From contig CP089462.1 of NCBI GenBank assembly GCA_026636295.1, positions 62,001-126,000 on the forward strand: DNA of 64,000 nt, in the 5' to 3' direction. The notes beneath the pieces are model-generated. The model searched no databases. It was not told where the DNA came from and saw only the letters and a program-made list of their open reading frames with translations. The DNA comes from Medakamo hakoo. Lineage: Eukaryota; Chlorophyta; Trebouxiophyceae; Coccomyxaceae. This document shows positions 44,883-64,000 of the stretch, piece by piece. Each line of letters opens with the position of its first letter. The first letter of the stretch is position 1. The translations under genes and the position numbers were made by a program.

Positions 44883-47800
44883 TCACCCAAAAAGCGTCCC
44901 CAGGTCCACCCACCGGTACGAGCACGCATCGCGCAGCGCGCCCGCCGCCGCCGCGCCCGCTTCCAGCGCCGGGCGGATCGCCGCCAAGCGCCGGTTGGCT
45001 TCCGCAGGGTCCAACGGCTCGGCCGGCGGTCCGCCCGCGACCAGGCCGGCCGGGCGGCGCGCCGCCACGGCCGCCTTCCGCACGGCCGCCGCCACGGCGC
45101 GCGCCGGGTCCAGGGCCCGCCACACGGCCGCGACGCGGGCGTACGCTTCCGCTTCGCCCAGGTCGCGGACCATGCGGGCGGTGGACGGGGCGCGCGGGTC
45201 GGGCGGGCACGACCCCCAGCCGCCGCCGCCCGCCGTGTCGGGTTTGAGCGACACGTCGCGCGTCCGCCCGCCGCCGCCCGCCGCCAGGAGCTCGTCGTCG
45301 GGCGACGCGCCCGCGTCGTAGTACGCGACAATGGCGGCGCGAGCAGCCAGCGCCGCCGCGTTGGCGACGGCGGCGGGCGGCGGCGGCGGGGCGGCCGGGT
45401 CGTCGGGCGGGGCGAGCGCGCGCTCCGCGGGCGCCGCGCCGGCCGCGACGCGCTCGGCGCCGCCAAACGCCCACCCGTCCTCGCGCCCGTCCGGACCCGG
45501 GCGGGACCGCGGCAGGACCAGGGGCGGGCACCGCTCGAAGCGGGCGTCATCGTCCAGGAGCGCCCCGCCGCCCAGCATGGCCGCGTCCCGGGCGGCGGCG
45601 GCGGCGGCGGCGGAGAAGGCCGCGCCGCCGGCGCCGCCCCCACCACCGCTGGCCCGGAATTTCGCGGCGTCGAGCCCCAGGCACTCGGCCAGCGCGCCCG
45701 CGTCCGTGCCTTCAATGGGCGCGCACAGCCGGGCGACGACCGGGTGGACCTGGTGGCCCAAGTACCATTCCGCGTCCGGGATGAGCGCGCCGCCGGACGC
45801 CCGGATCTCGTCCGGGTGGAACGCGCGCGCGGCCATCGGCTTGCCCGCGAGCCGGCCGGGCGGGGCGGCGGCGGCAGCGGCCTTGCCGCCGCCCTCCTCC
45901 CCACCACCACCACCCTCCGCCGCCGGCGGCGCGTTTTCCTGGCCCGCGCCCGGCCCGTCCACGCAGATGACGTACGGCACGGTCTCGCCCTGCCGCGTGC
46001 CGTCGGCCTGGCCGCCGCCGCCCGCCGCCGCCCGCCGCAGGGCGACCTGGACGTGCGGCTGGCCCGCCGCGTCGGGGTAGTCGCCCGGCCGCTTGGTCAG
46101 CTGCTTGGTGATGACAAACTTGTGGAGGGGGGCGTCCCCGCCCCGCACCGCGGCCGCGACGCACCGCAGCCTGTCGTGGATGGCCGCCACCACGTCGTCG
46201 CGCTGGGCGCCCGCCGCCAGGATGGCGTCCAGCGCGTAGTTGCCCGCGTCCTTGGCGAGCGGGCACCAGTCGCGGCGCACGATGTCCAGGCCCTTGGCTT
46301 CCCGCACCTCGGCGGGCGGGCCGCCGCCGACGCCCGCCTCCAGCTTGACCGCCGCGTACTTTTTCTTCTTGAGCAGGAGCAGGCGCGCGAACACGCCGTC
46401 CAGCTCGATCTCCAGGGTGCGGTACCGCTTGTTCACCTCCCGCTTGATGCGGCCGCCCAGGCCCAGCGCGTCGCCCAGGTCGGCCGTCCCCGTCGCGACC
46501 ATGATCGAGTCGGTGTCGCCGTACACGACGTCCGCGCCCAGGCCGCCCTGCACCAGGTCCACCGTGGCTTGCAGCACTTCGCGCCCCTGCTGGGTGACCA
46601 GCTCGGCGACGGGCCGCGCGTAGAAGCGGGAGTGGGTGAAGCCCAGGCACCCGTACATGGAGTTGGCCGTCAGCTTGAGGGCTTGCTGCCGGATGTCGAG
46701 CTGGGACCGGCGCGTGCCGTCGCGCTCCGTCTTCAGCATGTCCTTGACGGCGCGGCGGCGCTGGACCAGGCCCCGAATGACGGTGGGCAGCAGGGCCGCG
46801 CCTTCCGGCCCCGCCGGCGGCGGCGGCAGGGGCGTCGGCCCGCCGGCCGGGTCCGGCTCGACCGTCGTGAAACAGATGTCGTACTCCTGGATGATGGACG
46901 GGTAGAGCGAATTGAAGTCCAGCAGCAGGACGTACCGGTCGTACAGTCCCTTTTTGGGTTCCAGGACCAGGCCGCCGGCGTACTGGGGCCCCTTGGCGGC
47001 GGCGGCACCGGCTGCCGCCGGCCCGCCGCCGGCCGCGGCGGCCAGGCGCTCGCGGTCGCGCGCGCTGCGCCGGTCCGGGCACAGCATCTTGCGGGCGTGC
47101 AGCTCGTGCAGCAGCAGCATTTCGATGCGGCCCGCGCGCTGGCCGGCCAGGGCGCGCGACCACAGGGACCCGGACAGGCAGGCCAGGGCGCGGGTCAGGG
47201 GCAGGGCGTTGAGGTGGGTGGCCAGGCCCAGGGCCAGCCACGCGTCGCCCTCGGCGTGCTTCACCAGGCGCAGCAGCGCGTCGGGCCCGCCGTCGTACGC
47301 GGCCGCCACGCCGCCGGGCGGCAAGTCCGACCGGGCCTGGCCCAGCAGCACGCGCGCCATGGTCGTCAGCGTGTAGTCGACTTCGCGGACCAGGTCGCGC
47401 GACGCCAGGTAGGTGTCGGCGAGCAGGCGGCCGGCCAGGACGGCGGCCAGCCCCGGCGACGCGCCGCCGCCGCCCGGCCCGCCCCCGCCGCCGCCGCCGC
47501 CGCCGCCCAGGCCGCTGGGCGGCTTGGACCGCTTCAGCCGGCCCAGGCGGGACCAGCCGGGCGCCTTCAGGGCCAGGCACCGGTGCAGGAGGACGTCCAA
47601 GTCGAAGGCGGCGGCGTTGTGGCCGACCAGGACGTCGGCGTCCAGTTCCTTCAGGCGGGCGAGCGCGGCCGTGAGCAGCGCCTTTTCGTTCGGCAGCGCC
47701 GACAGGGCGGGCCCGCCCACCACGCCGCGGGCCATGGGGGAGGCGTTGACGCCCGCGACGGCCGCGTCGAAGCCGGGCGGGAAGGGGCGGCCTTCCAGGC

Positions 47801-50174
47801 GGCGCACGATGGAGAAGGCGCGCAGGCGGGCCGGCGTCGACCATTCCGCCCGCCCGACCGGCCGGTCGGCCGGCAGCGACTTCAGGTACACGACGGACAG
47901 GCCCGCCACCTCGTTGGTCTTGGCGGTCGGGTGCAGGGCCGTCGTCACCTTGATGGCGGCCGCGACGAGCGGCGGGGGCGGGCGGGACTCGGCGTCGGGG
48001 GCGGGCGAGACGGCCTTGGGCCCGCGCACGCGCACCTCCAGCCCGCACCACGACACCTGGTCCCGCTCCGCCACGGGCGCCGCGCCCGCCAGCGTCAGCC
48101 AGACCGCGCCCTTGACGCGCCGCTTCAGCAGGAAGGCTTCCAGGGCGGACGTGTTGCCGCCAAAGGCCGCGACGAAGTGGTCGCCCGCCAGGCCGGCGGG
48201 CAGGGCGGGCGCGGCCGCGGGGTACCGCGCTTTGACGACCCACTGGGGGCCCTTGGGCACGGCCACGCCCGGCGGCGCGCCCACGCCCGGGTACGCCCGC
48301 TTGACAGGCTTGAGCGTGAATTTGGTCACGCCCGCCGCCGCCAGCGCCGCCCGGATCTCGGCCTTGGCCGGGCCCGCCGCGGCGTGGAGGGCCGCGAGCA
48401 GCGCGCCGCGCGCGGCGTCGGCGGCCGTCGCGAGTGACGCGTCGTCGGGCGAGGCGGCCGACGCAGCCGCGGCAGCGTCGGCGGCGGCTTCCGCCTCCGT
48501 CACGTCCGCCCCACTGAACGTGCCCGGGTTGAGGACGAAGCAGACGGACCGGGTGCAGTCGGGCACGATCGCGCAGGCGGAGGTGTACGCGCCCGAGTCG
48601 GCCGGCGGGCGGGCGGCGGCCGCCGCGTTTTTGGCGACTTTGCCGAACAGGAAGACGGTGCCGGGCGCGGCGACGTCTTCCACGGCGTCGATGAGGAAGA
48701 AGGGCAGGCTGCCGTCGGCGGACAGGGGCAGGGACGCGGAGGACGCGGACGGGGTGGTGGCGGTGGCGGCGGCGGCCGCGGGCGCGGGGTCGGCCTCAGC
48801 CTTCACCCCCGCCCCCTCCTCCTCCGCCGCCGCCGCGGCCACGGCCTCCCACCCAGCCGCGGGCGCGGCAGTCGCGGGCGTGGGCCCGGCTTCGGCAGCC
48901 GGCACGGCCGGCGGCGGCGTGGCCAGGGCGGCGGCGGGCGCGGGCGCGTCCGCCGCGAGCACGCGCGCGACCGCGTTGTGGTGCGACGCAGACGGCCGGC
49001 GGGCGTGTGGGGGAGCGGAAGGCGCTGAGGGCGTCGCGTCCGCGGGCCCGGCGTCGGCGGCGTCCGCGGGCTCGTCCACCCCCGGCTCCGCCTCGGTGGC
49101 CGCGGCGGGCGCGGCGTCCAGGCCCGCCGCGGCGGCCAGGCGCGACGCCGTCGCGGGCGGGCGGCGCGGACCGAGGACGGCCGCCGCCGCCGGGCGCGGG
49201 GCGGTGGCGGGCGTGGGCGCAGGCGCAGACGGGCCCGCACCGCCGCCGCCGCCGCCGCCCACGCCGCCCAGGATGTCGTCCAGCAGGGCGTCTGCGGCGG
49301 CCGTGTCGACGGGGCCGTCTGCGGCGCCGGCGGCTTTTTTGGCGCCGCCGCCGGCGCCCGTCCCGGCCGCCGCGAACATTTTGGAGATGCGAGCGCGCTG
49401 GGCGGCGGGGAGCGGGACGGCGGCGGCCCGCTTCTTGGAGCCTGTTGGCGGGGTGGGGAAGGCGTGTGCGCGTGTGTGAGGGGGCGGGAGGGTGGGGCGC
49501 GGGTCGGGCAAGGTGCGCGGCCGGAAAAAAAAAAAAAACTCGCGCACCTTTCTTCTTCTTCTTGTCGTCGTCGCCGCCACCGCGACGACCGCCACGGCGG
49601 TCGTCCTCCTCCTCGCCGCCCGCCCAGTCGTCCTCCTCGCCGATGTCGACGTAGCCGGCGCCGTCGTCGTCGACGACAAAGTCGCCTGTGTTTTGGTGTG
49701 GGAGGCAGTGAATTCAAACAGCTCCCCGCAAAGACAAGGGCGGCGGGAACGCGAGTGGCGGCTTTCTGAGCCTGCCGCGCCCACCAGCGAGTAGCTGACG
49801 CGCCTTGCTGCCCATCGGATGGAGCAGACAGGGCTGCGCGACGACACAACCCTCTCCCATCCGCGTCCGCCTTTCAAACAACGCGGCTGTCTTTCACGCC
49901 GCGCTCCATGCGCTCTTCCGTCCGCCGCCCGCCACACCCCCTCCCAAAACAACGCACCTCCCTCACGCCGGCGTTTGGCCACGAGCTCCGCGTACTCGTC
50001 CTCGTCCACCACGTCGTAGACGGCGCCCTCGTCTTTCAGTTCAAAGGCGTCGAGCCGTTTTTTCGGGCCGGCATCGCCGCCGGCGTGGTCACCACGGCGC
50101 AAGGCCGCCAGTTCGGCCAGGGCGGCCGCGCCGCGCTTGGGGCCGCGTTCGCGCCGGCCCCGACCGGAGTCCAT
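44883..50174 (-). CDS. POLA1: DNA polymerase alpha catalytic subunit
   Basis: Three exons (49958..50174, 49548..49685, 44883..49441), joined in phase 1, give 1637 residues. The N-terminus carries the pol-alpha N domain: VYDVVDEDEYAELVAKRRRE, then GDFVVDDDGAGYVDIGEEDD, and RARISKMFAAAGTG. The exonuclease-like domain is inactive as in the family (DVLVGHNAAAFDLDVLL). Family-B polymerase motifs are LLLDFNSLYPSIIQEYDICF (about residue 960), QALKLTANSMYGCLGF, VVYGDTDSIMVATG (about 1090) and LLLKKKKYAAVKLEAG. The SLYPSIIQE(Y/F)(D/N)ICFTT form is diagnostic of alpha. With primase it starts every Okazaki fragment. The C-terminal about 225 residues align to the dual zinc module but retain almost none of the cysteines. 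Ala/Pro-rich insertions enlarge the protein beyond the usual about 1460. Confidence 0.95.
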   Translation of the reverse strand: MDSGRGRRERGPKRGAAALAELAALRRGDHAGGDAGPKKRLDAFELKDEGAVYDVVDEDEYAELVAKRRREGGALFWEGVWRAADGRAHGARRERQPRCLKGGRGWERVVSSRSPVCSIRWAARRVSYSLVGAAGSESRHSRSRRPCLCGELFEFTASHTKTQATLSSTTTAPATSTSARRTTGRAARRRTTAVAVVAVAATTTRRRRKVREFFFFFRPRTLPDPRPTLPPPHTRAHAFPTPPTGSKKRAAAVPLPAAQRARISKMFAAAGTGAGGGAKKAAGAADGPVDTAAADALLDDILGGVGGGGGGGAGPSAPAPTPATAPRPAAAAVLGPRRPPATASRLAAAAGLDAAPAAATEAEPGVDEPADAADAGPADATPSAPSAPPHARRPSASHHNAVARVLAADAPAPAAALATPPPAVPAAEAGPTPATAAPAAGWEAVAAAAAEEEGAGVKAEADPAPAAAAATATTPSASSASLPLSADGSLPFFLIDAVEDVAAPGTVFLFGKVAKNAAAAARPPADSGAYTSACAIVPDCTRSVCFVLNPGTFSGADVTEAEAAADAAAAASAASPDDASLATAADAARGALLAALHAAAGPAKAEIRAALAAAGVTKFTLKPVKRAYPGVGAPPGVAVPKGPQWVVKARYPAAAPALPAGLAGDHFVAAFGGNTSALEAFLLKRRVKGAVWLTLAGAAPVAERDQVSWCGLEVRVRGPKAVSPAPDAESRPPPPLVAAAIKVTTALHPTAKTNEVAGLSVVYLKSLPADRPVGRAEWSTPARLRAFSIVRRLEGRPFPPGFDAAVAGVNASPMARGVVGGPALSALPNEKALLTAALARLKELDADVLVGHNAAAFDLDVLLHRCLALKAPGWSRLGRLKRSKPPSGLGGGGGGGGGGPGGGGASPGLAAVLAGRLLADTYLASRDLVREVDYTLTTMARVLLGQARSDLPPGGVAAAYDGGPDALLRLVKHAEGDAWLALGLATHLNALPLTRALACLSGSLWSRALAGQRAGRIEMLLLHELHARKMLCPDRRSARDRERLAAAAGGGPAAAGAAAAKGPQYAGGLVLEPKKGLYDRYVLLLDFNSLYPSIIQEYDICFTTVEPDPAGGPTPLPPPPAGPEGAALLPTVIRGLVQRRRAVKDMLKTERDGTRRSQLDIRQQALKLTANSMYGCLGFTHSRFYARPVAELVTQQGREVLQATVDLVQGGLGADVVYGDTDSIMVATGTADLGDALGLGGRIKREVNKRYRTLEIELDGVFARLLLLKKKKYAAVKLEAGVGGGPPAEVREAKGLDIVRRDWCPLAKDAGNYALDAILAAGAQRDDVVAAIHDRLRCVAAAVRGGDAPLHKFVITKQLTKRPGDYPDAAGQPHVQVALRRAAAGGGGQADGTRQGETVPYVICVDGPGAGQENAPPAAEGGGGGEEGGGKAAAAAAPPGRLAGKPMAARAFHPDEIRASGGALIPDAEWYLGHQVHPVVARLCAPIEGTDAGALAECLGLDAAKFRASGGGGGAGGAAFSAAAAAAARDAAMLGGGALLDDDARFERCPPLVLPRSRPGPDGREDGWAFGGAERVAAGAAPAERALAPPDDPAAPPPPPAAVANAAALAARAAIVAYYDAGASPDDELLAAGGGGRTRDVSLKPDTAGGGGWGSCPPDPRAPSTARMVRDLGEAEAYARVAAVWRALDPARAVAAAVRKAAVAARRPAGLVAGGPPAEPLDPAEANRRLAAIRPALEAGAAAAGALRDACSYRWVDLGTLFG

Positions 50175-50336
50175 GATGCTCGGAAGGAAGGGCTCTGTTT
50201 GTTGCTCCGTCTTGTTGCCGCGCAAGTTTTTTATGTTCCTTGTGCGCGCGCGCGGGCCCGCTTGGAGAGAGTGACCAGAGGCGAGTCCCCCTCGCGCCCG
50301 GCGGCTTGTTTTTTTTTTGTTCACCGCTGCTGGACC

Positions 50337-51646
50337 ATGCTCGCCCTCGGCATCGAGGGTTCCGCCAACAAAGTCGGTGTCGGCATTGTCCGTGATGACG
50401 GCACCATCCTGGCCAACCCGCGGAAGACGTGCGTTGTGGCAGTGGGGCGGGCCGGCGGCTTTTTTTTTTGCGAGGCATGCCTCGCGCCGACCCCCAAACC
50501 ACTCACGCACCGGTCTCGCCCGCCCCACCACCCGTCCCACACCACCCTCACCACCCTCCTGCCACACACAACACACACTCTCCCACAGCTTCATCACCCC
50601 GCCCGGCACGGGTTTCCTGCCCCGGGAGACGGCGCTCCACCACCAGGTAGCGAGGAGGGGGCGCGGGCGCACACGAGCGGGGGGGGGGAGGCACCTAGCA
50701 CGGACGCCCATGCACTCACGTTTTCCGTCCCCCCCCCCCCCCAAAAAAAAAACTCACACAGGAGCACATCATCGCCCTCGTCCAGGCCGCCCTGGCCGAG
50801 GCCGGCGTCTCGCCGGCCGACATCGGGTGCGTCGCCTTCACCAAGGGCCCCGGCATGGGCGGCCCCCTCGTCTCCTGCGCCGTCGCCGCGCGCTGCCTGG
50901 CCGCGGCCTGGCGCGTCCCGCTCATCCCCGTCAACCACTGCGTCGGCCACATCGAGATGGGCCGGGCCGTGACGGGCGCGGCCGACCCCGTCGTCCTGTA
51001 CGCGTCCGGCGGCAACACCCAGGTCATCGCGTACGCGGGGCGCCGGTACCGCATCTTCGGCGAGACGATCGACGTGGCGGTCGGCAACGCGCTCGACCGC
51101 GTCGCGCGCCTGTTGGCCCTGTCCAACGACCCGGCGCCGGGCTACAACATCGAGCAGCTGGCCAAGGGGCCGCCGGGTGGGCCGGCGCCCAAGCTGCTGG
51201 ACCTGCCGTACGCCGTCAAGGGCATGGACGTCAGCATGTCCGGCATCCTGGCGTCGGTGGAGGGCATCGTCGCACGGGACGTGCCGGCCGGGCGCGCGAC
51301 GCCCGCGGACGTGTGCTTCTCCCTGCAGGAGACCGTGTTTGCCATGCTCGTCGAAATCACGGAGCGGGCCATGGCGCACGTGGGCGCGGCCGACGTCCTC
51401 ATCGTCGGCGGCGTCGGCTGCAACGCCCGCCTGCAGGAGATGATGGGCTCCATGGCGAGTGAGCGGGGCGGCAAACTGTATGCGATGGACGACCGGTACT
51501 GCGTGGACAACGGCGCCATGATCGCGTGGCCCGGCCTGCTGGCGTTGCAGAGCGGTGGGCGGGGGGCGGTCGGGGTGGAGCTGGGGGAGAGCACGGTGAC
51601 GCAGCGGTACAGGACGGACGAGCCGCTGGTGACGTGGCGGGAGTGA
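50337..51646 (+). CDS. KAE1: tRNA N6-adenosine threonylcarbamoyltransferase Kae1/OSGEP
   Basis: Three exons (50337..50428, 50589..50646, 50762..51646) give 344 residues, the normal length for the eukaryotic/archaeal type. Blocks seen are [74 protein letters not shown] (metal-binding His pair), [67 protein letters not shown] and [18 protein letters not shown]. Kae1 is the catalytic subunit of the KEOPS complex that makes t6A37 in ANN-decoding tRNAs in the cytosol. It is divergent from POLA with 162 bp between start codons. The second intron is short and ends in A-runs before CACACAG. Confidence 0.97.
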
Positions 51647-55792: not shown

Positions 55793-58700
55793 TCACGCCC
55801 CCTCCACCCAGGAGTGGCCCTCACCCAGCAGCCCGCCCGGCACAGCGGCTTCAACCACGTCCAGCAGCGCGGACGACAGGACGGCCGTGACTTCGCGGCG
55901 GCGGGACGCGACGAAGTAGTGGTCGCCGTCCGGGATGGGGACGAGGCGGAAGGAGGTCGGCGGCGGCGGCGGGTGCTGAGCCGCGCCGCCGCGCCCGTCC
56001 TCGCCGCGCCCGTCCTCGCCGCCCTCGACACCCTGGTCCACGAAGCGGGACCACTGGCCGACGGCGCCGGGCGCGATGGTCGCGTCCCGGCCGCCCTCAA
56101 AGGCGAGGACGACGGCCAGGCCGGAGCCGCGCCCGCCCAGGCGCGGGCGGTCTGGCGGCGGCGCAGCATACGACACGGCCATGAGAATGTCCGCGACGCC
56201 GATGGGCGCCACCCGGTCGAACAGGCGGGGGTTGGCCTCCATGTCAGCCACGCCAGCAAAGTTGCCCTTGCGGAAGACGGACATGACGACGGACCGCGGC
56301 AGGGACCGCCAGCCGCGCAGCTTGGCAGTCGCGGCCGAGATGGTGGACGCGGCGTCGCGCCCGGCGCCGCCGTCGTCGCCCGGCGCCACGTACAGCTTGG
56401 CCACGGCTTCCGCGTACAGGTCCGGCGGCGACACGGCCGCGACGGCCAGCAACAGGGGGGCCGGCTCGCCCGCGGCCGCGGCGGCGGCGGCCAGCTCATA
56501 CGCGACGATCCCGCCCAGGCACGCGCCGAAGAGGGCGTACGGCGTGCCGTCGCCGCGGGAGCCGATGGGCAGGCCGGCCAGCAGCTGGGCGGCCAGGGCC
56601 CGGGCGTCCTCGGCGGGCGGCTCCCCGCGGCGGCGGCCCCGCCCCGGCAGCTCGACGGGGCAGACCTGGACGCACGGGGGCAGGAGCGCGCCCCACCCGC
56701 CGTAGACCGCCTCGGACACGCCGCCCGCGTACGGCAGGCAGAACAGGCGCAGGCGGACGGTGGACGGGGTGGGCGCGATCCAGGCGGACCAGGACGGTGG
56801 AGGGGGCGGGGCCCGGGCGGTGGAGGAGGCGGGAGGGCGGTCGGCCGCCGCCGCGGCCGCCGCCGCTGCCGCCGCCGCCGCGGCCGCGAGGGTCGCGACG
56901 GTGGCCGCCCCACCCGCCGCGGCCGGCAGGTCGACGCCCAGCTCGGCCCGCAGGCGGGACCGCAGCTCCAGCGCCGCCAGGGAGTCGAGGCCCTGGGCGG
57001 CTAGAGGGGTGGACGGGTCGGGCGTCGAGCCGGTCAGGGCGGTGACGGCGGCGGAGATGGCGGCGGCGGCGGCGGCGGGCGTGGGCGGGCCACGTGCGGG
57101 CGGAGGAGGAGGAGGAGGAGGAGGGCGTGACTGCGGCGCGGCCGCGCCCCCGCCCCCCACCACCTCGGCCAGCAGGGCCGGCAGCTCAGCTCCCGCGCCC
57201 ACCGCCGCGTCCGCCATGCCGGTCCAGTAGGCTTTCGGCGCGGCGCCCAGGACGCCGGAGGGCAGGCGGCCGCCGGCCGTCGCAGAGACGGCGGCGGCGA
57301 GGAGCGACGCGCCGGCGGCGGGCGGGAGCACGCCGGGGGCGGCCGCCGTCGCGCGCGCCGCCAGGCCCAGCCCGCCCCACGCGCCCCACTGGACGGTGGT
57401 GACGGGGAGGCCCGTGCCTGCAGCCGCGCCCGCCACAGCTTCCAGAGCCGCGTTCGCGCCGGCGTACGCGGCGTGGCCCGCATACCCGGCGACGGCGGAG
57501 ACGGAGCCAAACGCGAGGGAGGCCGCGAGCGGCGCGGCAGGGCCGCCCAGCGCGGCGCCCAGCGCCGCCCAGGCGGCCGTTTTGGGGGCCGTCACCCGGC
57601 GGGCGAGCGACGGGGCGTGGGCCACCAGCTCAGCTCCGGCTTGGACGCCCGCCGCGTGCAGTAGGGCGGCCGTGCGGGTGGCGGAGCGGGCCGCGGCGGC
57701 CGCGACGCCCGCCGCGTCGGCTGCGGACGCCGCGTCGGCCGCGCGCGCGCACACCAGGCCGCCGCCCGGCCAGGTGGCGAGGGCTGCCGTGCAGGCCGGG
57801 TCGCCCTGCCCGCTGCGGCCCAGGAGCGTGACGGTGGAGGCGTGGGGTGTGGCGTGCGCGGCCCACCGGCCGGCCAAGAGGCCGAGCCCGCCCAGGCCGC
57901 CAGTGATGAGCGTGGCTGAGGGTGGGGGGCGGTCCAGGCCACGGCGCAATCCCGAACAGTCCGCGTGCTCGCGGTCGTAGGACAGGCGGGGGGTCAGACC
58001 TATGCCAGCGGACGTGGACGGGTGCGGGCCAGGCGCGCCCGCAGCCCCGGCTCCAGTGAACCGCAGGCCGACGGGGCCGGACAGGCGCGACGCGCACGCG
58101 TCCACAGCCGCGGCGCGCCCAGCCAGGGCCGGCGCTTCGTACGCGAGGTTGGCCAGGGCGCCCGACGCCGCAGACGCCGCGGCGCGGGCTGTCATGGGCA
58201 TGGACGGCCGCCCAGGCCCGCCCATCCCCTCTCCGGTCGTGTGCAAGAGCAGGGAGGCGGGCGACGGAGGCCGGGCGACCGCGCGCGCGACGGCCGCGAC
58301 GCCCGCGGCCGGGCCGGAGGGGGAGGGGCGGCGGCGCGCGGCGCGCGGCCGGCCGACCCGCCCCGTCACCACCGGCTCGTCCGCCAGCCAGGCCACGCCG
58401 TACGCGGCCTCCAAGCCAAGCGGCAGAGGACGCCGGCGCGCGGTCCACGCCAGGCCAGTGCCGGTGGCGGCGGGCGCGCCCCCGGCGAGCGAGGCGCGGG
58501 CGCCGCCGCCCGCCGCCCAGGCGGGCGGGGCGGGCCAGAACGCCCACGCGTCGGCGGCGGCCATGGCCCGCCCGCCGCCGGCCAGGACGGTTGAGGCGGC
58601 TGTGTGGCCAGGGTGCAAGACGTAGGCGGCCGCGTCCACGGCCGCGGGCGCCAGGGACGCGACGGCGGCCGGCCGGGCGGGCGGGCAAAGCCGGGAGACG

Positions 58701-61700
58701 CGGCGGGCGAGCAGCGGTGGCGGTGGCGGTGGCGGCGGCGCACGGCCGCCCTCGCCGCACGCCACCACGGCCGCGGTCAGCGCGGGCGGGCCGTCCGGCC
58801 CGCCCACCACCACCCGGCCCGACGCCGTGTCCACAGCCGCGACGAGCGCGCCGAGCGGCAAGGCGGGCGCGCTCCAGGCCAGGCCGGACAGGGTCAGGGG
58901 GGCGGCCGCGCCGCCGCCGGGCAGCAGCGACCCGCACGCCGCGGCCGCGACTTCCAGCAGGGCGGCCGCGCCGTCGGACGCGCCGTCCCGCCAGGTGGCC
59001 AAGCGAGGTGCGAGCGTGGAGCAGGAGCAGAGGACGCGGCCGCCACTCGCGTGGACGCCGGCCAGGACGGCGGCGGCCCGGGCGAGGGGGAAGGGGAACG
59101 CGCGCGCCCGGCGCCAGGCCAACCCCAACCCTGCTGCATCGGCGCCGCAAGCGCTGCCGGCGCCGCCGCCGCCACCGCCCAGCCCCACGACCGCGTGCGC
59201 GTTGACGCCAGACATGCCGAACGCGGACGTGCCGGCGGTCAGAGAGGACGCGGATGACGGCACGGACAGCGGCACGGCACCGCCGGCACCGCGGCCGACG
59301 TGCGGGGCGGGGGCGGTAGGCGAGGACAGACTCTGTGACCAACCCTCCAACGCACTGGAGACCTGGGGGTTGAGCGTCCGCAGGTGGGGCGTGCCCGGCA
59401 CGGCGCGGCCGGCCAAGGCGCCCGCGACGACCAGCAAGCCCGCCGCGCCCGCCGCGCCCTCTGTGTGGCCCAGCGCCGCTTTGGGCGCGACCAGGTGCAG
59501 GCGGGAGGGCGCGGCGGACCGCCGCGGGGAGGCGGCCAGCGCCCCGCCCGCCGCGCCGACTTCGATCGGGTCGCCCAGTGGCGTCCCCGTCCCGTGCAGG
59601 GCCAGGACCGCGGGCGGGCGCCCGCCTCCCGCCCTGTCGAAAGCAGCGTGGAGCAAGGCGGCCTGGGCCGGGCCGGACGGCGCGGTCAGGCCGGACGCCC
59701 GGCCGGCGTGGTTGACGGCCGTGGCCGCGAGGACGAGGCGCGGCGCGGGCGCGCGCGCGCCGGGGGCAGCAGCCTGGTCCGGCGGCAACGCCCGCAGCAC
59801 GACGGCCGCGACGCCCTCCCCACGCCCGTACCCGTCCGCGCCCGCGTCCAAGGCCCGGCACCGCCCCGCCGGGCTCAACGCGCCCAGCGCGCACACCGCG
59901 GCGCTGGTCTCCGGCCGCAGCAGCAGGTTGACGCCGCCGACCAGGGCGGCGGCCGCGTCGCCCGCCCGCAGGGCGCCCGCGCCAAAGTGGGCGGCGACCA
60001 GGGAGGAGGAGCAGGCCGTGTCCGTGGAGGCGGCGGGGCCGCCCAGGCCCAGCGTGAAGGCGGCGCGGCCGACGAGGAAGGCCGGGCCCGCGCCGGTGAT
60101 GGCCTGGGGCGGCGGCGCGGCGGGGTGGTGGTGCGCCCCGCCGCCCGCGCCAGGAGGAGGGGCCGGCCCCGCGCCGGCGGTGTGGGGCCGCCCCCCACCC
60201 GACACCGCGCCCACCAGCAGGTCCAGGTACTCGTGGTACATGGCCCCGACAAAGACGGCGGTGGAGGGGCGGTGGAGCCCGCCGCCCGCCACGCCGGCCA
60301 GCGCGTCCGCGCCGGCCTCCAAGAAGGCGCGGGCCTGCGGGTCGGTCGCGGCCGCGTCGGCCGGGGACAGGCCCAGGGCGGCCGCGTCCACGTCCAGCGG
60401 GGATGGGGGCAGCGCCAGCCAGGCCGCGAAGCGGGTGTAGGACGGCGCGCGCAGGGCGGCGGACGCCGGCGCGCCCCCGCCGGCAGACGGGTCGAACGTT
60501 GGGTCGACGTCCCAGCGGTCGAGGGGGACGGGCGCCGCGCCGTCGGGCGTGGTGGCCGACGACCAGGCGGCGGTCCACCCAGCCGGCTCGACACCCCTCC
60601 CACCGGGCAAGCGGGTGGAGGCGGCCGCGATCTCGACGGCGGGCGCGGCGGCGGGCGTCGCGGCCGTGAGCGACGACGGCACAGGCCGCGGCTGGAGTGG
60701 GGGCGGCGGGGGTTGAACACCGACGCGCCGCCCCGCGTCCCGCCCCACCGCCGCCAAGGCCGCCGCCATGGCCCGCGGCGTCGGGTGGTCAAACACAAAG
60801 GTGGCGGGGAGGTCCACGCCCGTGCGGGCGGCCAGGGCGGACCGCAGCTCGACCGCGCCCAGGGAGTCGAGGCCCGCGTCGGCCATGAGGGGCGTGTCAG
60901 GCCCGGCGGGGCCGACGACGGCCGCGACGGCGTCTAAGACGAGAGCTAGGGCGGTGGCACCGTCCAGGGCCGGGGTGGAGGGCGGGCCAGCCGGCTGCAC
61001 AGCGGCCATAGCCGCCGGTGGTGGCGGCGCGAGCGCGGCAAAGAGCGGCGGGACCGCCCGTCCGCCCGCCGCGCGCTCGGCCAGGCGGCCCCAGCTGAAG
61101 GACGCGACGAGCGGCGAGCCGCCGGCCACGGTCCCGCTCTCCAACCCGTCGAGCAAGCGGCCAAAGGCCGCCAACCCGACGGCCGGCTCCAGGGCGCCCA
61201 TGCCCGCCCGTTCCAGGCGGGCGAGCGACCGGCCGTCGCCAGCCATGCCGCCCGCCCACGCGCCCCACTGAGCCGACGCGGCGGGCACGCCCGCGTCCGC
61301 ACGCGCGTCCGCCCAGCCTTGCAGCGCGCCGTTGGCGGACGCGTACGCGGCTTGGCCGGGCGGGCCCAGGGCGGCGGCGGTGGAGGAGAAGGCGAGCAGG
61401 GAGGCGAGGGGAGTGGCCGCGGCCGCGGCCGAGAGCGCGGCCGCGGCCGCGCCCTTGGGCGCGGCCGACGCGCGCAGGGACGCCAGGGTGAGTGCCGGCA
61501 GGGTTGCGTCGGCCAGGACGCCGCCCGCGAGGACGAGGCCGGTCAGGCGGCGGGTGCATGGCATGGACGCCACCACGCTGCGCACGTCGGCTGCCGCGCC
61601 GGCGTCGCAGGACGCGGCGGTGACGGGCGCGGCGTGGCTGGCGTCCGCCAGCCGCGCGCCGTCGGCCCGGCCGCCGCCCCGGCCCAGCAGCAGCACGCCC

Positions 61701-64000
61701 ACGCCGCGGCTGGTCAGAGCGCGCGCAGCCAGGCGTCCCAACGCACCCGTGCCACCCGTGATGGCGTGCATCGATGCGTGAGACGGCACGCAGGAGAACG
61801 CCGCCGCCCGCCGGGCGGGCGTGAGCTGGGGCGTGGCGGCCGCACCACCGTCCGCGCGCGTGCCGGCCGGCGGCGCCGCCCCGGCCGACAGCGGGTCGGC
61901 GTGGGACACAGACCAGGCGACGCCGCCACCACCACCACCAGCTTCCGCCGCCGCGACGCGGACGAGCGCCGCGACCGCCTGGGCGGCCGGGCCGGCGTCG
62001 CGGGTGGCGAAGGAGCGCGGGGCGCCACGCTGCGCGGCCGCGACGGCTGCGGCCGCGGCCGCGGCCGCAGCCGTCGCCTGGCGCGGCAGGCGGGTGAGGG
62101 CGGCGCGCGTCCGCGCAGTCACCGGCTCCACCACCCGCCACTCCACGTCCCAGGAGACGGGCGACGGCCGGGTGGGGGTGGCGGCGGCAGGGCGACGCGC
62201 CTCCTCTGCCGCCGGCGCGCCCAGCACGGCCGTCGCGAGCCCGGCCGCCCTGGTTGGTGCCGGGCAGCCGGCGCCGTGCCCGCCCACCAGGGCGTGCGTG
62301 CTGGTGCTGTCGGCTCCAGCCGCGACGACGGCGTGGCCGTGCCAGGCCGCCCGCGTGTGAGCCGACAGGGCCTGGTGGTCGACCGCGGCAAAGGCGGCCA
62401 GGCGGGTGGGGACGCGCGGCCGGCGCCCGCCGCCCTCCCCCACCGCCGCGCCCGCGTGGAAGGCGGCGTCCAAGGCCGCGGGATGGGTGGCCCCCCACGC
62501 CGTGGTGGGGACGGGTGCCAGGGCAGCGACCGCGCCCGCCGGCGGCGCGAGGGTGTGAGCCGGGATGAGAGGGTGGCGGCGGCGTGCGTGGCGGACGGGC
62601 GTCGGTGGTGGTGGTGGCGGGCCGCCACCGCCCCCGTCCGTCGCGCACCGCACGAGCCGGGCCGTGAAGGCCGGGCGACCGCCGCCCACAGCCAGGGCGA
62701 CGGCACCGCTGGTCGTGTCCACGTCCAGGGTGATGGCCGGTGCACCGCCCAGCAGGACGGCCGACGTGAAGGCCGCGCCCGCCAGCGCCAGGCGTGGCTG
62801 CGCGGAGGGCGGGTGAGGCGCTTCGAGCGAGGCCGCTCCCGCGCCCAGCCCCGCCGCCAATAGCGCCGCCGCGGGCAGCAAGGCCGACCCGCGGACGGCG
62901 TGGTCGGACAGCCAGGCTAGAGCCGGGTGAGACAACGCCCGTCCAACGTCAAAGCGGGCCGTGGGCACCGCCGGAACGCTCACGGCCGCGAGCAGCGGGT
63001 GCGGCGCGCCGGCAAACCAGCAGCGCACCCGCTGGAAGGCGAGAGGAGGGGCAGGCGGCCCGCCGCCACTCCCGACGCCCACAGCCCGGAGGATGGCGTG
63101 CGCGTTGACGCCGGACATGCCAAAGGACGATGTGCAGGCCCGGGCGGTGAAGGGCGAAGCAGCGGCGGCAGCGTGAGGCAGGCCGCCCGCGCCGCGCGGC
63201 AGGTGGGCTGCCGCGCTCGCAGCGCCCGCGCCCTTTGCCGCCGCCGCCCGACTCCATTCGCCCAGGGCGGACCCGACGTGCGGGTTGAGGGTGCGCAGGT
63301 GGCGGGTGGGCGCGCCCGACCGCCCACGCACGCCCGCCGCCGCCAGCAGCAGGCCCGTCAGGCCGGCCGCGCCCTCGGTGTGGCCAAACCTGGCCTTGGT
63401 GGAAGAGAGCGGCAGGGTGGGTGGCGCAGCAGGGCCAGACCCCACCAGCGCGGCCGCCAGGGCCGCGACTTCGATGGGGTCGCCCAGCGGCGTGCCCGTG
63501 CCGTGGACGGAGGCGGCGGCCAAGAGAGGCGGCCAAGAGGAGGCCAGCGACGCGAGCGCGGCCCGGACGAGCGCGGTTTGGGCCGGGCCAGACGGCGCCG
63601 TCAGCGACGCGGACCGGCCGTCCTGGCCGACAGCGGACGCGTCTAAAAGGGCCAGGGATCCAGCCACACGATCCTCACCCGCCGGCACCAGCAGGCAGGC
63701 CGTGAACGCCTCGCCGCGGCCGTACCCGTCCGCGGCCGCGTCCCAAGTGCGGCACCGGCCGACGGGGCTCAGCGCGCCCAGCGCGCAAATCCCGGCGGTC
63801 GTCTCGGCGCGGAGCAGGGCGTTGACGCCGCCAATGACGGCGGCCGGGGTTTCGGATGCTGCCACCGCAGTCCGGCCCAGGTGCGCGGCGACCAGGGAAG
63901 AGGAACAGGCCGTGTCCGTGGACACGCACGGGCCGGACAGGCCAAACGTGAAGGAGACGCGGCCGACCAGGTAGGGTGGCCCGCTGCCGACAAAGGCGTG
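55793..64000 (-). CDS. Multimodular type I polyketide synthase, AT-less, C-terminal part (continues off the right edge)
   Basis: One intronless frame of 2735 residues, open at 64000. Numbering residue 1 at the window edge, the domains are: end of KS1 (1-305; active Cys in DTACSSSL near 32), DH1 (about 330-590; DHAVRGSALLP and HPAALDAAFH), KR1 (about 745-920; ITGGTGALGRLA, Tyr in QAAYASANGAL), ACP1 (DAGLDSLGAVELR, Ser near 1046), KS2 (about 1120-1615; DTACSSSLVAAH, HGTGTPLGDP, KAALGHTEG), a DH-like region without the catalytic motif (about 1640-1890), KR2 (about 2030-2230; LITGGLGGLGLLA, Tyr in HAAYAGAN), ACP2 (QGLDSLAALELR) and a thioesterase from about 2417. No acyltransferase lies between KS and the next domain in either module. 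The thioesterase motif is GACLGG. The KS, KR, ACP and TE calls are strong; the product is unknown. Confidence 0.95.
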   Translation of the reverse strand, partial: HAFVGSGPPYLVGRVSFTFGLSGPCVSTDTACSSSLVAAHLGRTAVAASETPAAVIGGVNALLRAETTAGICALGALSPVGRCRTWDAAADGYGRGEAFTACLLVPAGEDRVAGSLALLDASAVGQDGRSASLTAPSGPAQTALVRAALASLASSWPPLLAAASVHGTGTPLGDPIEVAALAAALVGSGPAAPPTLPLSSTKARFGHTEGAAGLTGLLLAAAGVRGRSGAPTRHLRTLNPHVGSALGEWSRAAAAKGAGAASAAAHLPRGAGGLPHAAAAASPFTARACTSSFGMSGVNAHAILRAVGVGSGGGPPAPPLAFQRVRCWFAGAPHPLLAAVSVPAVPTARFDVGRALSHPALAWLSDHAVRGSALLPAAALLAAGLGAGAASLEAPHPPSAQPRLALAGAAFTSAVLLGGAPAITLDVDTTSGAVALAVGGGRPAFTARLVRCATDGGGGGPPPPPPTPVRHARRRHPLIPAHTLAPPAGAVAALAPVPTTAWGATHPAALDAAFHAGAAVGEGGGRRPRVPTRLAAFAAVDHQALSAHTRAAWHGHAVVAAGADSTSTHALVGGHGAGCPAPTRAAGLATAVLGAPAAEEARRPAAATPTRPSPVSWDVEWRVVEPVTARTRAALTRLPRQATAAAAAAAAAVAAAQRGAPRSFATRDAGPAAQAVAALVRVAAAEAGGGGGGVAWSVSHADPLSAGAAPPAGTRADGGAAATPQLTPARRAAAFSCVPSHASMHAITGGTGALGRLAARALTSRGVGVLLLGRGGGRADGARLADASHAAPVTAASCDAGAAADVRSVVASMPCTRRLTGLVLAGGVLADATLPALTLASLRASAAPKGAAAAALSAAAAATPLASLLAFSSTAAALGPPGQAAYASANGALQGWADARADAGVPAASAQWGAWAGGMAGDGRSLARLERAGMGALEPAVGLAAFGRLLDGLESGTVAGGSPLVASFSWGRLAERAAGGRAVPPLFAALAPPPPAAMAAVQPAGPPSTPALDGATALALVLDAVAAVVGPAGPDTPLMADAGLDSLGAVELRSALAARTGVDLPATFVFDHPTPRAMAAALAAVGRDAGRRVGVQPPPPPLQPRPVPSSLTAATPAAAPAVEIAAASTRLPGGRGVEPAGWTAAWSSATTPDGAAPVPLDRWDVDPTFDPSAGGGAPASAALRAPSYTRFAAWLALPPSPLDVDAAALGLSPADAAATDPQARAFLEAGADALAGVAGGGLHRPSTAVFVGAMYHEYLDLLVGAVSGGGRPHTAGAGPAPPPGAGGGAHHHPAAPPPQAITGAGPAFLVGRAAFTLGLGGPAASTDTACSSSLVAAHFGAGALRAGDAAAALVGGVNLLLRPETSAAVCALGALSPAGRCRALDAGADGYGRGEGVAAVVLRALPPDQAAAPGARAPAPRLVLAATAVNHAGRASGLTAPSGPAQAALLHAAFDRAGGGRPPAVLALHGTGTPLGDPIEVGAAGGALAASPRRSAAPSRLHLVAPKAALGHTEGAAGAAGLLVVAGALAGRAVPGTPHLRTLNPQVSSALEGWSQSLSSPTAPAPHVGRGAGGAVPLSVPSSASSLTAGTSAFGMSGVNAHAVVGLGGGGGGAGSACGADAAGLGLAWRRARAFPFPLARAAAVLAGVHASGGRVLCSCSTLAPRLATWRDGASDGAAALLEVAAAACGSLLPGGGAAAPLTLSGLAWSAPALPLGALVAAVDTASGRVVVGGPDGPPALTAAVVACGEGGRAPPPPPPPPLLARRVSRLCPPARPAAVASLAPAAVDAAAYVLHPGHTAASTVLAGGGRAMAAADAWAFWPAPPAWAAGGGARASLAGGAPAATGTGLAWTARRRPLPLGLEAAYGVAWLADEPVVTGRVGRPRAARRRPSPSGPAAGVAAVARAVARPPSPASLLLHTTGEGMGGPGRPSMPMTARAAASAASGALANLAYEAPALAGRAAAVDACASRLSGPVGLRFTGAGAAGAPGPHPSTSAGIGLTPRLSYDREHADCSGLRRGLDRPPPSATLITGGLGGLGLLAGRWAAHATPHASTVTLLGRSGQGDPACTAALATWPGGGLVCARAADAASAADAAGVAAAAARSATRTAALLHAAGVQAGAELVAHAPSLARRVTAPKTAAWAALGAALGGPAAPLAASLAFGSVSAVAGYAGHAAYAGANAALEAVAGAAAGTGLPVTTVQWGAWGGLGLAARATAAAPGVLPPAAGASLLAAAVSATAGGRLPSGVLGAAPKAYWTGMADAAVGAGAELPALLAEVVGGGGAAAPQSRPPPPPPPPPARGPPTPAAAAAAISAAVTALTGSTPDPSTPLAAQGLDSLAALELRSRLRAELGVDLPAAAGGAATVATLAAAAAAAAAAAAAAADRPPASSTARAPPPPPSWSAWIAPTPSTVRLRLFCLPYAGGVSEAVYGGWGALLPPCVQVCPVELPGRGRRRGEPPAEDARALAAQLLAGLPIGSRGDGTPYALFGACLGGIVAYELAAAAAAAGEPAPLLLAVAAVSPPDLYAEAVAKLYVAPGDDGGAGRDAASTISAATAKLRGWRSLPRSVVMSVFRKGNFAGVADMEANPRLFDRVAPIGVADILMAVSYAAPPPDRPRLGGRGSGLAVVLAFEGGRDATIAPGAVGQWSRFVDQGVEGGEDGRGEDGRGGAAQHPPPPPTSFRLVPIPDGDHYFVASRRREVTAVLSSALLDVVEAAVPGGLLGEGHSWVEGA

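Follow-up and report, generated by a model that had tools for sequence, protein, structure and literature searches.

The DNA considered here, hereafter the window, is a stretch of 64,000 nucleotides from the green alga Medakamo hakoo (C1:62001-126000, that is, positions on contig C1), and the element in question is an open frame at positions 55793-64000 of its minus strand, where the window edge cuts through the gene of a giant polyketide synthase (PKS). Positions without a contig name are counted along the whole 64,000-nucleotide stretch. The stop-free frame extends beyond the window to C1:158733 and as a whole occupies C1:117793-158733 on the minus strand, with 13,646 codons. The genome used in this analysis comprises 15.64 Mb in 16 contigs, of which C1 has 1,473,234 bases; the M. 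hakoo genome paper, in the portion available, describes a long-read trebouxiophyte assembly of 247-fold coverage with 16 nuclear contigs and 73% GC, and the word "polyketide" has 0 occurrences in that portion of its main text. The host is, as a trebouxiophyte, a chlorophyte, and multimodular PKSs devoid of acyltransferase (AT) domains, with the AT supplied in trans, are typical of chlorophytes according to the sections available of Shelest et al. (2015; PMC4661987); that class, clade 9 in their scheme, is recognised by KS domains that group with those of chlorophytes.

The C1 frame encodes ten ketosynthase (KS) modules with carrier proteins on one polypeptide, the organization of a modular type I (noniterative) PKS, and no AT was found in any of them. 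The first-pass annotation, made from the window's letters alone, had described two consecutive AT-less modules. The absence is borne out by Pfam, by an AT profile and by the lack of any GHSxG motif, but the number is larger: domain annotation beyond the window places M1-M8 ahead of the two window modules in the same frame, making ten in this gene, and six more lie in a second giant frame on contig C16. The window holds M9, cut within its KS, and M10, with the following features (DH, dehydratase; KR, ketoreductase; ACP, acyl carrier protein; TE, thioesterase; HMM, hidden Markov model).

55793..64000, minus strand: 3' part of the ten-module AT-less type I PKS frame (codons 10,912-13,646 plus stop, the last fifth)
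63299..64000, minus strand: C-terminal part of the KS of M9 (TACSSS 63913-63893, HGTGT 63505-63491), its N-terminal part lying beyond the window
62999..63298, minus strand: KS-DH junction of M9, about 100 residues (SSFGMSGVNAH, then a post-AT-linker-like FQRVRCW 23 residues past NAH), the AT location in cis-AT modules
62717..62998, minus strand: N-terminal subdomain of the DH of M9 (HAVRGSALLP 62902-62873; D motif HPAALDAAFH 62485-62456)
61253..61768, minus strand: KR of M9 (Pfam, motifs, own HMMs)
60755..60940, minus strand: ACP of M9 (GLDSL)
59393..60577, minus strand: KS of M10 (TACSSS 60019-59999, HGTGT 59596-59582)
57911..59392, minus strand: KS-KR interval of M10, 495 residues (WRRARAF 29 residues past NAH; no AT signal)
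57374..57910, minus strand: KR of M10 (Pfam, own HMMs)
56879..57058, minus strand: ACP of M10 (GLDSL)
55796..56758, minus strand: terminal TE, like stand-alone (type II) TEs (GACLGG, and GDH near the C-terminus)

The C1 map combines Pfam scans of the frame in pieces with our own HMM profiles at residue level. In the window, Pfam reports KS, PKS_DH_N (barely above the cut-off), two KR, two ACP and a TE, while our profiles give KS9-DH9-KR9-ACP9 and KS10-KR10-ACP10, the TE being contributed by Pfam. M9 is thus the KS-DH-KR-ACP module described at first, and its KS passes directly into a DH that retains both HxxxGxxxxP and the D motif. For M10, the KS, KR, ACP and TE of the proposed KS-(DH)-KR-ACP-TE stand, but a motif search of the translation between its KS and KR returned neither DH motif, and the bracketed DH is consequently at best a dead remnant. 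Past the linker motif, the interval is presumably taken up by a DH that has degenerated (HxxxGxxxxP is missing) together with the structural region of the KR. The upstream modules read KS-DH-MT-ACP-ACP (M1, where MT is a C-methyltransferase), KS-DH-KR-ACP (M2, M5, M6 and M8), KS-DH-ER-KR-ACP (M3, where ER is an enoylreductase) and KS-KR-ACP (M4 and M7); M10 is KS-(dead DH)-KR-ACP-TE. The C-methyltransferase of M1, at C1:155485-155988, is followed by two tandem ACPs, and the AT-less database protein P0129 likewise carries an MT and tandem ACPs.

Catalytic motifs are well kept in both giant frames. HGTGT is present in 10/10 KS domains of C1 and 6/6 of C16, a [GA]xDS carrier site follows each module, the active Cys of the KS is invariant in the 9 modules aligned (of 16), and HxxxGxxxxP is retained in 5/7 DH regions of C1 and 5/6 of C16. 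Read by eye, two short introns with GT...AG ends seem to lie 5' of the giant C1 frame, where a Ser/Pro/Arg-rich first exon ending in ...VPPSR would connect to WAADAGWFD..., and the first C1 KS would be split by one of them just ahead of GPCVAIDTACSAS; the same reading showed no AMP-ligase at the N-terminus. Two database proteins resemble the M. hakoo PKS in the region searched: P0127 (an ENA protein), 61% identical over 56% of that region, and P0147 of Monoraphidium minutum, with 41% identity over 27%.

Elsewhere in the window, the frames 44883-50753 (minus strand) and 50699-51646 (plus strand), judged by eye, resemble a DNA polymerase alpha (family B motifs) and a Kae1/OSGEP protein. The adenine-thymine skew of the plus strand is 0.23-0.34 over positions 56001-64000, the PKS part, and 0.17 in the next-highest 2-kb bin.

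Acyltransferase absence and the shortened post-ketosynthase region

The absence of an AT was approached in several ways. No Acyl_transf_1 match (Pfam, E up to 1) and no GHSxG motif occur in any translated piece of the C1 or C16 giant frames, and an AT profile built from 107 sequences and run with filters off gave five matches, all with negative bits (best i-E 2.6). A six-frame search of the genome with the AT family found no match near either PKS gene, the 5' exons of the C1 gene being covered too. Thus no AT was found in the ten C1 modules or the six C16 modules, which is the AT-less state of trans-AT PKSs, and an upstream AT serving the window modules in cis, named at the outset as a refuting find, did not appear in the Pfam scans of the pieces, with the AT profile or in the six-frame search. 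An assembly gap between KS and DH was the other such find, and the fetched sequence pieces of the giant frames contain 0 N.

There is also no room for an AT after the KS, as the first-pass annotation had held. In M9, 101 residues separate the KS end from the DH start; across the 13 modules of C1 and C16 in which a DH can be recognised, the figure is 87-116, against 447-578 (median 536) where an AT lies in between (59 modules of 43 database PKSs). AT-less proteins, bacterial where named, have 202-353 residues (25 modules of 11 proteins, a set that leaves out the 238-residue AT-less module of P0131, an AT-containing protein), while 91-116 are found in seven modules of three algal-looking AT-less proteins (P0121, P0122 and P0129). 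The AT-less gaps numbered 33, or 32 when KR and ACP matches were allowed to intervene.

The position of the post-AT linker, the aromatic-basic motif (YPFQRxRYW and similar) that follows the AT in classical PKSs, is informative about what was lost. One regular expression served to score how far this motif lies from the NAH that marks the KS end, and database proteins were sorted into classes according to whether the protein has an AT match, not organism by organism. The distance is 20-29 residues in 11/15 M. hakoo modules examined; the strict motif misses M1, M3, M6 and M8 of C1 (4/15), where degenerate versions are seen by eye, and module 5 of C16 lies outside the 15, its junction crossing the end of a sequence piece. 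In AT-containing PKSs the median is 443, from the 107/254 KS ends that gave a value (6/107 below 350), the others having no motif (102), no NAH (38) or a position at the edge (7). The median is 167.5 in AT-less, non-algal-looking PKSs, where 38/106 KS ends gave a value and the remainder fell into the same categories (46, 18 and 4). The five algal-looking database proteins yielded values of 21 (P0129) and 24 (P0147 of Monoraphidium minutum) from 13 KS ends, with 6 lacking the motif, 4 lacking NAH and 1 at the edge.

Bacterial-type trans-AT PKSs are defined by an AT-docking or adaptor remnant between KS and DH, and their KS phylogeny tracks substrate clades. No such remnant was found in M. hakoo, given a KS-DH distance of 87-116 against 202-353 residues and a NAH-motif distance of 20-29 against a median of 167.5. 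Judging from these distances, the AT, its adaptor and the stretch kept by bacterial AT-less modules appear to be gone, with the post-AT linker closed up on the KS. A linker that abuts the KS hints at descent from a cis-AT enzyme, which agrees with the displacement model that Shelest et al. (2015; PMC4661987) set out in the text available, and excision of the AT together with that stretch would leave nothing of the docking region known from bacteria. The words docking, linker, ankyrin and nucleoporin are absent from the available text of that article, the sole place checked for a loss of the docking region. An AlphaFold2 model of the KS-linker-DH segment of M9 (nine M. hakoo modules) had a mean pLDDT of 36 and was discarded.

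Free-standing acyltransferases and the loading of the carriers

The AT-family search of the whole genome found two places, C1:1102333-1103049 and C3:739455-740372, and M. hakoo therefore has free-standing ATs in the same genome as its AT-less modules. A free-standing AT with GHSLG had been hoped for at the outset; the two enzymes were found, with the motif GLSLG instead. In its available sections, a study of symbiotic dinoflagellates reports GLSxG for stand-alone ATs (PMC6361889). The C1 enzyme is a plain malonyl-CoA:ACP transacylase (MCAT), with human mitochondrial MCAT (168 bits) and Xanthomonas FabD (162) as best PDB matches of a query that leaves out the first exon and includes an in-frame intron.

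In the case of the C3 enzyme, the AT is preceded by ankyrin exons. With a Chlorella vulgaris protein as query, tblastn located MPRDLTGCGRYPPQP...LLSRGADP...DYGLD at C3:738433-739143 and the AT at 739434-740408, and the ankyrin-MCAT locus is accordingly C3:738433-740408. Ankyrin repeats are joined here to a malonyl transacylase with both Ser and His motifs, the latter being GxFHT, which is invariant in 26 hand-picked aligned proteins. Among the matches listed (the best 120 of 1594), relatives with ankyrin and AT occur in Chlorella, Micractinium, Myrmecia, Parachlorella, Auxenochlorella, Monoraphidium, Gonium, Tetradesmus, Raphidocelis, Bryopsis, Pedinophyceae, Chlamydomonas (CHLRE_02g088250v5) and a transcriptome with the taxid of Chloropicon maureeniae. 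In the 89 best rows, one or more of three ankyrin-region signatures can be seen in 67, several of the others being short gene models; 87 read GLSLGE and 2 GLSVGE, and 22 start with MPR. A start of the form MPR(D/N)..G.. is found in 20/26 of the hand-picked proteins, while the rest either start further on or have MHRD or VGRD there. For the Chlorella protein, AlphaFold2 gave a model with a mean pLDDT of 88 and a pTM of 0.57. To judge by its AT part, the family looks to have descended from a mitochondrial-type MCAT whose presequence side was replaced by ankyrin repeats. Our literature searches found no paper on Cre02.g088250, none joining ankyrin, trans-AT and Chlamydomonas, and none on PKZILLA together with acyltransferase; a search on malonyl-CoA, ankyrin, green algae and transacylase gave only unrelated content in the partial texts available.

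The trans-AT reading of the first-pass annotation is supported by the lack of a cis AT and by the two free-standing enzymes, and the anatomy of the modules suggests that a free-standing AT loads the PKS ACPs in trans. The ankyrin-MCAT at C3:738433-740408 is the best candidate for this loader, and the probability that it does load the PKS is put at about 0.6. In the proposed sequence of events, a free-standing malonyl-CoA:ACP transacylase would malonylate the ACP of each module repeatedly in trans, the KS would condense, KR, DH and ER would process the chain as each module permits, the methyltransferase of M1 would add a C-methyl, and the C-terminal Cys-type TE would free the chain. The ankyrin part may substitute for the docking given in bacterial trans-AT PKSs by the post-KS region, which is lost here. 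The ankyrin-MCAT would act in the cytosol, with the PKS ACPs as obvious acceptors: its conserved N-terminus, with little room for a cleavable targeting peptide, would fit a cytosolic location, and to our knowledge no type II fatty acid synthase (FAS) exists in the cytosol of plants and algae, which would make PKS carrier domains the natural acceptors of a malonyl transacylase there. The ankyrin-MCAT and a PKS reported in the source texts available coincide within the species Chlamydomonas reinhardtii and Monoraphidium neglectum, and within the genera Chlorella, Coccomyxa, Auxenochlorella and Chloropicon; for Chloropicon primus, the portion available of its source gives 12 polyketide synthase genes of unstated type.

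Several observations weigh against this assignment. The genome search read exon by exon, and an AT divided among small exons could have escaped its first-look filter. The AT part scores 258 bits (Chlorella protein) and 204 and 201 bits (M. hakoo exon) against human mitochondrial MCAT, 203 and 160 against the best bacterial FabD, and 150 and 120 against DisD; in sequence and fold it is nearest to the human mitochondrial enzyme, ahead of FabD, DisD, PksC and BaeC, and the ankyrin-MCAT may for that reason be the alga's mitochondrial MCAT. In the Chlorella model, residues 1-18 form a coil and the block means of pLDDT over residues 1-20 are 72 and 80, so that the N-terminus is neither clearly loose nor clearly packed and argues only weakly against a presequence. 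The family member P0085, labelled Chlat1, is presumably from the streptophyte Chlorokybus, for which a partial look at the literature, in texts partly available, found no statement of a type I PKS. Finally, no named ankyrin-MCAT of Ostreococcus or Micromonas (Mamiellophyceae) stands among the best 120 of 1594 matches, and both possess AT-less PKSs according to the available text of PMC4661987.

The chief alternative is that the plain FabD-like MCAT (C1:1102333-1103049), shared with fatty acid synthesis, loads the PKS, while the ankyrin-MCAT serves elsewhere, for example in mitochondrial FAS. The plain enzyme is the other AT found and is a malonyl transacylase by sequence, and the likeness of the ankyrin-MCAT to human mitochondrial MCAT suits this division of labour. 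On the other hand, algal FabD-like MCATs are thought to be located in the plastid, and the conserved N-terminus of the ankyrin-MCAT, in a model of moderate confidence, is unlike a mitochondrial presequence; we regard this alternative as unlikely, though a serious contender. The C. reinhardtii fabD Cre14.g621650 is coded C, CP, taken as chloroplast, in the portion available of PMC8448359. Rather more doubtful is a supply by both MCATs, or by an unrecognised donor such as a divergent AT, a split gene or self-malonylation of the ACPs. Only two candidates passed the exon-by-exon first look at the genome, which leaves space for such a donor, but there is no sign of a third AT, and both known ATs are ordinary MCATs by sequence.

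A decaying gene, its ATs lost in the decay, would agree with the dead DH of M10 but is very improbable, as the frame of 13,646 codons is stop-free, the KS His and ACP motifs are retained in every module, and P0127, the relative with 61% identity over 56% of the region searched, has the same TE motif. Least credible of all is an overlooked cis AT serving all modules from the 5' exons of the C1 gene, which were read by eye only, or from the KS-KR intervals of M4, M7 and M10, whose 476, 553 and 495 residues give nominal room: the genome search saw no AT close to the C1 5' end, the filter-free AT profile found nothing significant in these intervals, the linker motif stands 22, 21 and 29 residues past NAH, and the DH-bearing modules have a similar KS-KR distance (520 in M2), which suggests that degenerate DH and structural KR fill the interval. 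A cis AT hidden in the long intervals was rejected on the strength of the profile and the position of the linker motif.

The second giant frame, chain release and relation to known systems

The second giant PKS, at C16:308601-334607 (8,669 codons), opens with a carrier domain, continues through six modules and closes with a Nup98-type domain at its C-terminus. KR and ACP are present in 6/6 modules, DH in 6 (weak in the first) and ER in the fourth. The starting carrier domain, at C16:333603-333860, is by eye interrupted by an apparent short intron. Outside both giant frames, four KS loci (C5:339844, C8:333002, C16:104395 and C16:156295) are presumably fatty acid synthesis enzymes.

The tail, at C16:308601-309014 on the minus strand, is a diverged version of the Nup98 autopeptidase domain (Pfam 3e-18); over 133 residues it shares 42% identity with the M. 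hakoo Nup98 on C5. The C5 protein reads SVDHF-SRYGL, where HF-S is what we take to be the usual Nup98 cleavage site, while the PKS copy reads KVDGF followed by the stop; it thus lacks the His and Ser of the site and ends where matured Nup98 would. Codon-position GC is mostly gene-like across the junction between ACP and Nup98-type domain, and a possible intron of about 52 bases (GTGAGT...CTGCAG), seen there by eye, would shift the frame. The PKS-Nup98-type fusion is accordingly putative, and its tail is possibly an inter-protein docking domain. The Nup98 family is in none of the precomputed Pfam lists of six PKS relatives of the tail piece (Pfam was rerun for P0122), in a search that took proteins of 0.55-1.75 times the piece length and in which longer PKSs could not appear. 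BLAST against three of the six aligned the tail piece in its KR and ACP parts. Our literature search found no paper holding both polyketide synthase and autopeptidase.

The C1 PKS starts directly with a KS and ends in a TE, while the C16 PKS starts with a carrier and has no TE, and the two could be the second and first proteins, respectively, of one line. A wider proposal, speculative and rather improbable as a whole, is that AT, adaptor and docking region were cut as one piece, that an ankyrin-bearing mitochondrial-type transacylase roams as the loader in a third mode of feeding, and that the two giants may form a 16-module line in which the Nup98-derived tail of C16 docks onto C1.

Across C1 and C16, a KR is found in 15/16 modules, a DH in the majority and an ER in just two. 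Were each module to act once, the chain would be expected to carry many double bonds and hydroxyls and few saturated steps. The C1 TE aligns to the stand-alone thioesterases PDB 3qmw, presumably RedJ, and RifR. Its nucleophile position carries a Cys (GACLGG, codon 56521-56519, minus strand) where 3qmw has GHSMG, and P0127 retains GACLGG. Some TEs that form lactones or lactams also have a Cys at this position, and its presence instead of Ser suggests that release may differ from hydrolysis. As a first guess by analogy, the M. hakoo product might be a wall component, as Chlamydomonas PKS1 has been linked to the wall of the zygospore (Heimerl 2018, cited in the available portions of PMC9832785 and PMC12633428).

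The M. hakoo system is of a type already known in chlorophytes. In the sections of PMC4661987 available, the AT-less PKSs of the same phylum (CrePKS1, VcaPKS1, CvaPKS1/2, CsuPKS1 and those of Micromonas and Ostreococcus) are likewise very large single proteins with many modules and no integrated AT, the AT being proposed to act in trans. Most algal trans-AT PKSs lack the C-methyltransferase found in M1, although CsuPKS1 of Coccomyxa has it, and that text does not name a free-standing AT gene, whereas a candidate is named here for M. hakoo. New here are the genome-wide count of AT-less modules, the excision geometry, the candidate loader, the Cys-type TE and the Nup98-type tail. The candidate loader family (CHLRE_02g088250v5 and relatives) is conserved and testable, and it is present in an alga whose PKS1 is tied to the zygospore wall.

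The dinoflagellate stand-alone GLSxG ATs are described in the available text of PMC6361889 as monofunctional, and ankyrin, HEAT or PPR repeats are said there to be frequent fusion partners of trans domains; dinoflagellates carry many such AT genes, and the likeness to the ankyrin-MCAT drawn here is one of description. Bacterial trans-AT PKSs (P0212, named PksN; free ATs DisD, PksC, PksE and BaeC in the PDB) also combine AT-less modules with a free malonyl transacylase and have methyltransferase domains within some modules, as in M1. On the other hand, the M. hakoo candidate resembles human mitochondrial MCAT and FabD more than it does DisD or PksC, and in AT-less non-algal modules the stretch from the KS to the post-AT linker motif is about 145 residues longer. 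With this region lost, the AT must reach its module by another route than in bacteria, which makes the loss relevant to the understanding and engineering of trans-AT lines.

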